In this document: in pieces, positions 40,324 through 43,682 of the stretch
Numbering within the stretch: the first letter of the stretch is position 1
Layout of the letters: each line of letters opens with the position of its first letter
NCBI GenBank assembly: GCA_025362055.1
Contig: JANYIM010000014.1
Coordinates: forward strand, 1-45,780
Source of the DNA: Bacteroidota bacterium
GTDB taxonomy: Bacteria; Bacteroidota; Bacteroidia; Chitinophagales; Chitinophagaceae
DNA length: 45,780 nt
Direction of reading: 5' to 3'
Notes under the pieces: generated by a model
The model's database searches: none
Told to the model about the DNA's origin: nothing
Seen by the model: the letters and a program-made list of their open reading frames with translations, nothing else
Program-made: the position numbers and the translations under genes

Positions 40324-41232
40324 ATGGAATTCGGAAGATTACCTGCGGAAACATTGGACAGCATTGATTTCAGGCTGCCTAAAGAACCTGCTTTTAACAA
40401 GACGGTGCTGAAAGGCAAAGCTGTAAAGGATCCTAAAGTGTATCTCGGCTGCGCCAAATGGGGGCGTACAGAATGGGTAGGAAAAATATATCCACCCAAA
40501 ACAAAAGAGAAAGATTTTCTGCAACATTATGTACAGCATTACAATAGCATTGAGTTGAATGCCACGCATTATAAAGTATATGATGAAGCGGGAATAAAAA
40601 AGTGGACCACCAATGCTGCAGGAAAAAATTTTATGTTTTGTCCAAAGATGTACCAGGGCATTACACACCGTGGCAGTTTAAAAGGGAAGGATTTTATCAC
40701 CAATGAATTTTTTAAGGGTATCATTGCTTTTAAAAAAAACCTTGGCCCCATCTTCATACAATTCAATGAAACATTTTCTCCCAAAAGAAAAGAAGAACTA
40801 TTTACTTTTCTCCGGGCATTACCAACCGACCTCCAATTCTTTTTGGAAGTAAGGCATCCCGAGTGGTTCGCAAAAGAAAGTGTCCGTAATGAATTATTTA
40901 CAGCACTCAGCAACATCAATATGGGCATCGTTATTACGGATACCAGCGGACGGCGTGATTGTGCACACATGCATCTCACCGTTCCAAAAGCTTTTATCCG
41001 TTATGTAGGCAATAGTTTGCATGCAACGGATTATACGAGGATTGATGAATGGATCAAAAGAATGAAGTACTGGCTGGACAATGGTTTACAGGAATTATAC
41101 TTTTTCATGCACATGCACGATGAAGCCACATCACCAGAATTAACAGTGTATTTAGTAGATAAGATGAATGCGGCAATGGGACTACGTTTGATAAAGCCAA
41201 CATTTGTTACACAGCAGCCCGGTTTGTTTTAA
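40324..41232 (+). CDS. DUF72 domain protein
   Basis: VYLGCAKWGRTEWVGKIYPPKTKEKDFLQHYVQHYNSIELNATHYK ... FCPKMYQGITH ... FLEVRHPEWF ... YFFMHMHDEATSPELTVYL. Confidence 0.88.
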   Translation: MEFGRLPAETLDSIDFRLPKEPAFNKTVLKGKAVKDPKVYLGCAKWGRTEWVGKIYPPKTKEKDFLQHYVQHYNSIELNATHYKVYDEAGIKKWTTNAAGKNFMFCPKMYQGITHRGSLKGKDFITNEFFKGIIAFKKNLGPIFIQFNETFSPKRKEELFTFLRALPTDLQFFLEVRHPEWFAKESVRNELFTALSNINMGIVITDTSGRRDCAHMHLTVPKAFIRYVGNSLHATDYTRIDEWIKRMKYWLDNGLQELYFFMHMHDEATSPELTVYLVDKMNAAMGLRLIKPTFVTQQPGLF

Positions 41233-42512
41233 CCAACTTTAAATAATTCTTCCCATCTTGTAGTATAACGCGGACTTCTTAATTCCTGGCGCATTTTCCA
41301 GTCCCTTGTTGTTCCCGACGCTGCAAATTTTATCATATCATCCCTCATGGCAAAATTCACATTGTCGAGCATGCTCATTAAAAAACGATTGCTGTTTTTG
41401 TTCTCCCGCATAAATAAATTTCCCTGTATCGTAGTATCGGGAACAATACCACTCAACATTACGCCGGCCTTTTTATAAATTCTCCCTTGTTCATATAATT
41501 TATCGACCAACTGCACGGCCGGTTTTATTAATTCATTGGTAGCAGAAGTAGCAATTGGTAATGTTACATGACTGCTGATGGTAGGCCCATGCCTGAAATA
41601 AGTATTATGGCTTTGCTCTTTTGGTACCACAAATACACTGATGGTATTGGCAGCGCTCAATTGCCTGCGTAATTTTTCTGCTGCTCTTGATGTATAGGTT
41701 GCTATTGCTTCTTTAATGTCACCGATATCTTTTACGGGGTTGCCAAACATCCTTGTGGTAGCGATCATTTTTTTTATGGTCAGCTCTTCTTTCATTTCAT
41801 TGGCGGATTCACCCTTTAATTCCTTTATGAGCCTGGTACCAACCACGCCACCTAAATTTTTATATGCCCATTCTTCCGTTTTTTTTGTGAGATCATAAGC
41901 GGTGAATATGGCATTCATTTCAACCAGCTTTTGCGCGTATTGTCTGCCTATACCCCACACCTCACCAATAGGGGTGTCCTGTAGTGCTTTGCTTATTTTT
42001 TCTTTTGTATCCAGCACAACCACGCAACTGGTAGCTATCTTATTTTTTTTAGCGATATGATTGGCTACTTTAGATAACACTTTGGTAGGCGCCACACCCA
42101 CAGACACTTTTATTCCTGTCCATTGCTCTACGGTCTCTCTTATGTTTATTGCAACCTCTTCAATGTCTTTTTCTGCAAAGGCATCTAAATTTAAAAATGC
42201 CTCATCTACAGAATACACTTCCACATTTTCTTTCCCCAGCATTATCCTTAATGTTTCCATCACCCGCCAGCTCAGGTCGCCATATAAATTATAGTTACTG
42301 GAAAAAGTAGCTACACCGTGTTTCTCTATCAAGGGCCTTGCTTTAAAATATGGCCCCGCCATTTCTACACCTATGCTTTTTGCCTCATCACTCCTCGATA
42401 TGATGCAGCCATCGTTGTTGCTTAATACAACAACGGGCTTTTTATCCAGGTGTGGAAGAAATAATCTTTCACAACTGCAATAGAAACTGTTACAATCTAC
42501 AATGGCTTTCAT
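41229..42512 (-). CDS. umuC: Y-family DNA polymerase UmuC-type
   Basis: MKAIVDCNSFYCSCERLFLPHLDKKPVVVLSNNDGCIISRSDEAKSIGVEMAGPYFK ... YSVDEAFLNL ... VGVAPTKVLSKVANHIAKK. Start set at 42512; the 28-aa extension in the ORF track is repeat-derived. Confidence 0.95.
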   Translation of the reverse strand: MKAIVDCNSFYCSCERLFLPHLDKKPVVVLSNNDGCIISRSDEAKSIGVEMAGPYFKARPLIEKHGVATFSSNYNLYGDLSWRVMETLRIMLGKENVEVYSVDEAFLNLDAFAEKDIEEVAINIRETVEQWTGIKVSVGVAPTKVLSKVANHIAKKNKIATSCVVVLDTKEKISKALQDTPIGEVWGIGRQYAQKLVEMNAIFTAYDLTKKTEEWAYKNLGGVVGTRLIKELKGESANEMKEELTIKKMIATTRMFGNPVKDIGDIKEAIATYTSRAAEKLRRQLSAANTISVFVVPKEQSHNTYFRHGPTISSHVTLPIATSATNELIKPAVQLVDKLYEQGRIYKKAGVMLSGIVPDTTIQGNLFMRENKNSNRFLMSMLDNVNFAMRDDMIKFAASGTTRDWKMRQELRSPRYTTRWEELFKVG

Positions 42513-42517
42513 GTTGT

Positions 42518-42529
42518 GGGCTAAAGCCC
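42518..42529. repeat. palindrome GGGCTAAAGCCC (REP-like)
   Basis: 5-bp arms with AA loop, 5 bp upstream of the umuC ATG. Confidence 0.7.
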
Positions 42530-42550
42530 TTTGTAATTTTTTTTCATTAT

Positions 42551-42570
42551 CCCTGGCCTGAAGGCCAGGG
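42551..42570. repeat. REP-like hairpin CCCTGGCCT-GA-AGGCCAGGG
   Basis: 9-bp perfect arms with 2-nt loop. Confidence 0.8.
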
Positions 42571-42614
42571 CAATTTAGAAGGCTAGGGCAATTCATGACC
42601 TGCCTCGCCCTGAC

Positions 42615-42640
42615 TATCCTCGCCCTTCAGGGCGAGGATA
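42615..42640. repeat. REP-like hairpin TATCCTCGCCCT-TC-AGGGCGAGGATA
   Basis: 12-bp perfect arms with 2-nt loop. Confidence 0.85.
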
Positions 42641-42657
42641 AAAATTAAAAAATATAT

Positions 42658-42669
42658 GGGCTTTAGCCC
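42658..42669. repeat. palindrome GGGCTTTAGCCC overlapping the transposase stop codon
   Basis: Same palindrome as 42518-42529 and 43156-43167. Confidence 0.7.
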
Positions 42670-43097
42670 TCCATCATCCTAAATCCATATCTCTCCACAA
42701 ATTCATCATGCTCCTCCTGAAAAGTTCTCTTTTGATGATGCGCTTCCTGGTTTTTAATGTATTCTCTTACCCTGTTTACTCCCGATTCACTCACTGATAC
42801 AGCAAAATATTCGGATTGCCATTCAAATTTTTCTTTACATAAATTGTTCTTATTGATCCAGAAAGAACTTTCACCTTTCAGCAACTGCATTATATTGGCA
42901 ATCTTCTGATCCGGGTTTAATGAAATGAGGCAATGCACATGATCAATATGGCCATTAACAAAATCAATATGAATGTTTTTTGTTTTTGCATTTTCCCTGA
43001 TGTGCGTAAACACCAGTTGCCGGATATCTTTCGTTAGCAATGGCGATCTTTTTTTAGTTGCCCAAACTAAATGGATCCAGATTTTAATGAATGGCAT
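42663..43097 (-). mobile_element. REP-associated tyrosine transposase (RAYT; IS200/Y1-like TnpA)
   Basis: MPFIKIWIHLVWATKKRSPLLTKD ... IHIDFVNGHIDHVHCLISLNPDQKIANIMQLLKGESSFWIN ... EWQSEYFAVSVSESGVNRVREYIKNQEAHHQ; HxH (HVH) motif and Tyr in the C-terminal helix; palindromes on both sides. Confidence 0.88.
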
Positions 43098-43117
43098 ATA
43101 AATAATTTTTAGTTTTC

Positions 43118-43156
43118 ATGAATTGCCCTGGTGAATTGCCCTGGTGAATTGCCCTG
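43118..43156 (+). repeat. three tandem 13-bp units (A/G)TGAATTGCCCTG
   Basis: Units at 43118-43130, 43131-43143, 43144-43156. ATGAATTGCCCT recurs inverted at 42585-42596. Confidence 0.85.
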
Positions 43157-43169
43157 GGCTTTAGCCCAG
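43154..43169. repeat. hairpin CTGGGCT-TT-AGCCCAG overlapping the umuD stop codon
   Basis: 7-bp perfect arms; contains GGGCTTTAGCCC. Confidence 0.75.
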
Positions 43170-43595
43170 AGGCCTTATAATATATGTAACAACCCCCCAG
43201 ATCTTACAATCATCGAACTCACTCACATCGATGGGCGAAAGTTTTGGTGTTTCGGGTATCAGCCTTATTTTGTTCATGGTTTTTTCCAATCGCCGTATCA
43301 GCATTTCACCGTTAATGACAGCGATCACGATCTTTCCGTTCGTGGGTTTTATACTCCTGTCCACGATCACAATATCGCCGTCATGGATAGAAGCCCCGGT
43401 CATGCTATTGCCCGTTACCCGCATGAAATAGGTGGCCGGCTTGTTTTTGATCAGTTGCTCATTCAGGTCGATGCCCCGCTCCATGTAATCATCAGCGGCG
43501 GCGGTAAAGCCCGTGGCATTGGCGGTGGGCACATCCTGTTGCGTGAATCGCTTGCTGCCACCGTACCCTGCGGCAAAGAATTTTTCCACTTCCAT
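43161..43595 (-). CDS. umuD: UmuD-like S24/LexA-type auto-cleaving protein
   Basis: NKPATYFMRVTGNSMTGASIHDGDIVIVDRSIKPTNGKIVIAVINGEMLIRRL; catalytic Ser in GNSM and Lys in NGKIVIA. Confidence 0.93.
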   Translation of the reverse strand: MEVEKFFAAGYGGSKRFTQQDVPTANATGFTAAADDYMERGIDLNEQLIKNKPATYFMRVTGNSMTGASIHDGDIVIVDRSIKPTNGKIVIAVINGEMLIRRLEKTMNKIRLIPETPKLSPIDVSEFDDCKIWGVVTYIIRPLG

Positions 43596-43682
43596 ATAAT
43601 TATATTTGTATTAACTAATTAATTTAGTAAATTTATGCTAAAATAATTAGCTAACAAATTTAGTAACCAAAATATTTTAGCC

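Follow-up and report, generated by a model that had tools for sequence, protein, structure and literature searches.

Among the Y1 transposases, TnpA subclass 1.2 (Quentin et al. 2018, PMC6006769) is a low-copy group from Bacteroidetes, with proteins of about 148 aa that carry DHVH, WQ and YIKNQxxHH motifs. It was described as REP-free and, in general, as lacking IS200-type ends, although the lack of an associated REP belongs to the description of the subclass rather than to its definition, and no follow-up on it was found in the open-access literature, to which the search was confined. A single-copy Y1 gene is likewise at the heart of the RAYT/TnpAREP REPtrons (Nunvar et al. 2010, PMC2817692; Corneloup et al. 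2021, PMC8266576). The SOS regulator of Bacteroidetes, for its part, has CTAA-N5-TTAG as its operator (PMC8565304). The locus studied here brings these subjects together, as a subclass 1.2 transposase gene with its own hairpins lies between umuD and umuC, a position for which no report of a transposase was found in the same open-access literature. The reading favoured here, with a probability of roughly 75%, is that of a REPtron-like cassette sitting at the umuD/umuC stop-start seam, for which the seam is a protected niche, which is swapped laterally, and for which damage-linked expression is likely a by-product.

The coordinates of the features within the window (the whole stretch of 45,780 nt that was analysed) are collected in Table 1. 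As the earlier note had described, a same-strand transposase ORF and a set of palindromes separate umuD from umuC, and the precise wedging between the two genes of a transposase that has a hairpin family of its own is supported. umuC matches NF002955 with E=2e-107, at a score below the cut-off of that model. The umuC frame also continues without a stop upstream, across the REPs, as far as an ATG that lies in a REP foot (window 42513-42596; ORF 41229-42596), and an N-terminally extended UmuC encoded by this longer ORF is possible.

Table 1. Features of the umuDC region in the window; the REP models were trained without this genome
Feature	Position	Strand	Details
umuC (Y-family polymerase, Pol V catalytic subunit)	41229..42512	-	PF00817, PF11799, PF13438
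REP unit A	42516..42578	-	AATTGC foot, hairpin CCCTGGCCT-TC-AGGCCAGGG, A-rich spacer, GGGCTTTAGCCC; R1 model E=1.7e-18
Imperfect 15-bp tandem pair, partial REP duplication	42596..42625	+	TGACCTGCCTCGCCC / TGACTATCCTCGCCC
REP unit B	42610..42671	+	Foot, hairpin TATCCTCGCCCT-TC-AGGGCGAGGATA (42615-42640), spacer, GGGCTTTAGCCC (42658-42669); R1 model E=1.6e-13
tnpA, 144-aa HUH/Y1 transposase, IS200-like subclass 1.2	42663..43097	-	Pfam PF01797 E=7.5e-30; motifs DHVH, WQ, YIKNQEAHH
REP copy C, partial third unit between umuD and tnpA	43119..43175	+	R2 model E=8.8e-4 at 43144-43175
umuD (S24 peptidase, Pol V accessory)	43161..43595	-	PF00717 E=3.8e-28; NF007621 141.5 bits vs cut-off 110
SOS operator-like site 1, CTAA-N5-TTAG	43614..43628		ACTAATTAATTTAGT
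SOS operator-like site 2, CTAA-N5-TTAG	43637..43651		GCTAAAATAATTAGC

The 222 non-coding nucleotides of the insert contain three centres with perfect arms of at least 9 bp, one of which has arms of at least 12 bp. Dinucleotide shuffles of the insert gave any arm of 9 in 8 of 1000 cases and an arm of 12 in 0 of 1000, hence these palindromes lie beyond chance expectation. All those listed previously are present, namely the hairpin with 12-bp arms that belongs to unit B, the 9-bp-arm hairpin at about 42552-42571, three copies of GGGCTWWAGCCC (starting at 42518, 42658 and 43156) and the inverted ATGAATTGCCCT pair (42585-42596 and 43118-43129). However, they do not stand as separate elements, instead resolving into two full two-hairpin REP units and a partial third. 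The two full units face each other in inverted orientation between tnpA and umuC; the GGGCTTTAGCCC of unit A, at 42518-42529, stops 5 nt short of umuC, and the GGGCTTTAGCCC hairpin of unit B overlaps and supplies the tnpA stop codon. Copy C is made up of three tandem 13-bp foot/5'-arm repeats, TGAATTGCCCTGG (43119-43157), followed by a hairpin around GGGCTTTAGCCC (43156-43167) which overlaps the 3' end of umuD and provides its stop codon, TAA. A search against Rfam gave no match above chance, and a simple promoter and terminator scan returned counts near the shuffled expectation, with none of the REPs containing a site that resembles a terminator. Tandem copies of the REP foot and 5' arm lacking a 3' arm, as found in the window at 43119-43157, were also seen at two other loci (L053 and L059), and their copy number differs between genomes G089 and G092.

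The transposase had been labelled a RAYT, which is not borne out. TnpA scores 79.9 bits against the IS200/IS605 TnpA model NF033573 (cut-off 55) and 32.3 bits against the REP_Tyr_transpos model NF047646 (cut-off 80). The NP(L/V)(R/K)xG motif is absent from beside the catalytic tyrosine of TnpA, where YIKNQEAHH is found, and the cognate REP lacks a GT[AG]G head, its foot being AATTGC. What is RAYT-like is the arrangement: inverted REPs flank tnpA, further copies are dispersed over the genome, and the family follows the gene from genome to genome. The protein has the motifs of subclass 1.2 (DH[IV]H, WQ and YIKNQxxHH, in about 148 aa) together with its low copy number, there being one close tnpA copy in this genome; its closest relatives in the PDB are of the IS608 (ISHp608)/ISDra2 type, and both the DHVH and the tyrosine align with those of ISHp608 TnpA. 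A relative of a second, unrelated transposase type found at the seam in other genomes (T2, see below) is also encoded in this genome (59%), outside umuDC (L160, G000:C304).

That an ordinary IS200 insertion sequence came to sit here by chance is barely credible. The IS200 family score is what would be expected of one, but the multiple near-identical copies typical of IS200/IS605 elements (subclass 1.1) were not found; neither this genome nor the relatives searched contain a near-identical tnpA, the best match being 77%. The single close copy per genome contradicts such an explanation, and the dispersed cognate hairpins tied to this TnpA clade and the purifying selection on tnpA across a long divergence, both described below, count against it as well.

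The REP unit consists of the AATTGC foot, a stem of 8-9 bp that has TTYA at its tip, a spacer (18-33 nt in the copies collected, and mostly A-rich) and the smaller hairpin GGGCTTTAGCCC. Twenty-five REP hairpins were collected from other genomes, 21 of them forming the two-hairpin alignment; some genomes carrying the tnpA clade found here (T1) contributed one or two of these training copies, and this genome (G000), G092 and G062 contributed none. The TTGC of the foot is invariant in 25/25 copies. In the 21-copy alignment, compensatory changes are seen in seven of the eight pairs of the main stem and 99.2% of cells are paired, which was matched by none of 500 shuffles. Hairpins of this kind are found close to tnpA at held-out loci of the clade (e.g. 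L080, L081, L083, L085 and L086, and further L095, L227, L252 and L257), in records spanning Chitinophagaceae, Flavobacteriaceae, Ignavibacteria, Cloacimonadota and Chlorobiaceae; by contrast, none was detected near tnpA at any of the distant subclass 1.2 loci tested.

The genome-wide count called for by the earlier note bears out a dispersed family. The model, built without this genome, gives 25 matches in it, listed as 19 distinct places, since a palindromic copy may be hit on either strand. Among 18 copies checked at other places in the genome, 11 lie outside ORFs of at least 90 aa by a crude test. Nineteen listed places is a low copy number beside classical REP families, and the count of the GGGCTWWAGCCC pattern alone is weak (7, against 1 for the control). 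All 11 of the checked genomes carrying the TnpA clade have between 11 and 32 model matches each, while of the 29 genomes lacking it 18 give no match, the median being 0 and the maximum 12 (p=3e-7 for the comparison of counts). The counts rest on model and pattern searches; the sequence evidence as a whole establishes that the TnpA clade has a specific, covarying REP family, which flanks tnpA and is dispersed in the genomes that carry it. The clade-free genome with 12 matches (G022, L232) has no close TnpA of the clade that could be found, and its matches are possibly relics.

The junction between umuD and umuC was compared between relatives by searching the genus (93 genomes) and the order (299 genomes), yielding 98 scorable umuDC loci. 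In 51 of the 98 the two genes are less than 120 nt apart, often with a 4-nt ATGA stop/start overlap where the sampled seam is unoccupied, in agreement with the expectation that they are normally adjacent. The seam holds T1 at 11 loci, T2 at 7, a third Y1 gene (T3) at 1, a DUF559 gene at 1 and a four-helix-bundle gene at 1. T2 is a class-2-type Y1 gene, unrelated to T1 and with its own long inverted palindromes. All 19 of the Y1 genes are co-oriented with umuDC, and both polymerase genes stay open; at several occupied loci a palindrome provides the umuD stop codon. Within the genus, 14 of 61 umuD/umuC loci contain a Y1 gene, compared with none of 181 control junctions taken from the gene block adjoining umuDC in the window, none of which has a gap of 400 nt or more; the associated Fisher p of 1e-9 is indicative only, the loci being phylogenetically linked. 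These comparisons show the seam to be a recurrent docking site across this bacterial family, used by two or more unrelated Y1 lineages, by a third Y1 gene in one case, and by small genes of other kinds.

Other features were observed in the same gap. Elements of approximately 140-180 bp with CCCCCTAACCCCCTAAAGGGGG-type ends are present at the seam in L049, L052 and L060, and similar ends flank the DUF559 gene at the seam in L255, which suggests a non-autonomous derivative. The four-helix-bundle gene (TIGR02436, in L285) is flanked by GGATTAATGGATTA-type tandem repeats.

The earlier note proposed a recent, boundary-marked RAYT transposition into the SOS operon of this genome. Such an event would account for the sharp palindromic boundaries, and in the UmuC tree the nearest relatives sampled (G033, G035 and G099) do have a transposase-free seam, although this distribution fits a gain in one lineage and a loss in the others equally. 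Nevertheless, a single recent insertion is very unlikely: this junction is occupied by the same clade in 11 scored species from at least three genera, amid empty, T2-bearing and other loci, no near-identical copy was found in this genome or in the relatives searched (best 77%), and the motifs are not those of a RAYT. Occupants are scattered over the UmuC tree, with parsimony requiring 12 changes. The T1 proteins located at umuDC nonetheless form one clade with moderate support (89/91 in one tree, 88/64 in another), and those of T2 nearly do so.

Pairs of loci indicate how such a pattern might arise. In G089 and G092 the cassettes are mostly 95-100% identical, and this level of identity runs on through roughly 87 nt of umuC before dropping to about 75%; correspondingly, dS is 0.06 for tnpA and 1.71 for umuC. 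Conversely, the sister loci of G089 (T1) and G086 (T2) have umuC genes about 90% identical and unrelated cassettes. The identity step and the cassette mismatch together point to homologous recombination, and one cassette has apparently been swapped recently between species. This pair, the clearest case of exchange, is to be read with caution and may conceivably reflect misassembly, since the two genomes were binned from a single metagenome (339R) and each contig starts within tnpA.

The tnpA gene is maintained under purifying selection, with omega of 0.06-0.12 between T1 pairs. One copy, in L072 (G084), is decaying, with an in-frame TAG stop and HVY in place of HVH. Members of the clade are also found at other operon seams, where their neighbours are mostly co-directional: within type I restriction-modification operons, where they separate hsdR from hsdM (L081 and L085), directly 3' of hsdM (L079), adjoining the urocanase gene hutU in two taxa (L093 and L095), and adjoining a PurT-like gene in Ignavibacteria (L089 and L091). 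The notion of an SOS-specific cassette was dropped in view of these positions at hsdR/hsdM, beside hutU and beside purT.

Both CTAA-N5-TTAG sites in the window lie upstream of umuD, in keeping with the operator of the Bacteroidetes SOS regulon, and most of the 51 umuD genes compared have the motif upstream, many of them as a paired arrangement. This makes the suggested coupling of the transposase to DNA damage plausible. A genome-wide scan allowing two mismatches gave 20 matches, compared with 28 for the reversed-pattern control, and as this is not above the control no claim regarding the regulon is made. As the seam of the damage-induced umuD and umuC genes repeatedly holds small transposase genes with hairpin repeats of their own, here and in many relatives, an enzyme acting on ssDNA probably rides under the control of the damage response.

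Whether such control is the reason for the cassette's presence is a separate matter. Under SOS domestication, the transposase would be kept for its useful damage-induced expression, several Y1 lineages having converged on umuDC, to the benefit either of the REPs, with the enzyme present when ssDNA is abundant, or of the host. Unrelated Y1 lineages sharing one seam, their uniform co-orientation and repeated gain and loss, the strong purifying selection on tnpA and the operator motifs upstream of umuD would all fit this scenario. It is nonetheless unlikely, given that the distribution is patchy, with most umuDC loci having no Y1 gene, that the clade also occurs in restriction-modification, histidine-utilisation and other junctions, and that DUF559 and four-helix-bundle genes use the same seam; selection against antisense or polar insertions, moreover, would also lead to co-orientation. 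A protected niche at an operon seam is the likelier explanation, because the same clade occupies other such seams, and it makes fewer assumptions.

According to the favoured reading, then, the cassette comprises one intact HUH/Y1 ssDNA transposase gene of the IS200-like subclass 1.2 and its own REP family, and would have entered the seam without breaking umuD or umuC. By analogy with IS608 TnpA and the TnpAREP of E. coli, TnpA would nick and join REP hairpins in ssDNA, guided by the AATTG foot. Passage between species would take place mainly through homologous recombination in the conserved flanks of umuDC, and not by a new transposition on each occasion. The tnpA gene is predicted to be co-transcribed from the SOS-regulated umuD promoter and so induced by damage, this expression being a likely by-product of the niche.

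These results assign REPs to a TnpA class previously described as lacking them, and the AATTG foot and two-hairpin layout, both new, widen the known range of REP recognition. The SOS operon seam is a natural and repeatedly used docking site for HUH transposases; consequently, the idea of damage-responsive ssDNA transposition is directly testable in culturable Chitinophagaceae. It is doubtful that unrelated ssDNA transposases converged on the SOS polymerase operon through damage-induced expression delivering them when ssDNA is plentiful, but were this true, the spread of REPs would be triggered by damage and coupled to mutagenic repair.

Compared with the systems described previously, the umuDC of the window falls under the same motif as that of the Bacteroidetes SOS regulon, with two sites upstream of umuD, in an account whose text makes no mention of transposases (PMC8565304). 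The TnpA shares an HUH motif, a catalytic tyrosine and a hairpin with a conserved 5' foot with IS608 and ISDra2 of the IS200/IS605 family (subclass 1.1), but is not multicopy here and has no TnpB gene at this locus. As in the RAYT/TnpAREP REPtrons, inverted palindromes flank the gene, recur at dispersed places in the genome and are found where the gene is present; unlike them, the enzyme belongs to class 1 rather than class 2 and has no NP(L/V)(R/K)xG, the foot is AATTG instead of GT[AG]G, a second conserved hairpin, GGGCTTTAGCCC, is present, and the REP copies are fewer. TnpA-Y1 subclass 1.2 (PMC6006769) has the same motifs, low copy number and occurrence in Bacteroidetes; the difference is that this subclass was described without REP, whereas the clade found here has a clear cognate REP family.
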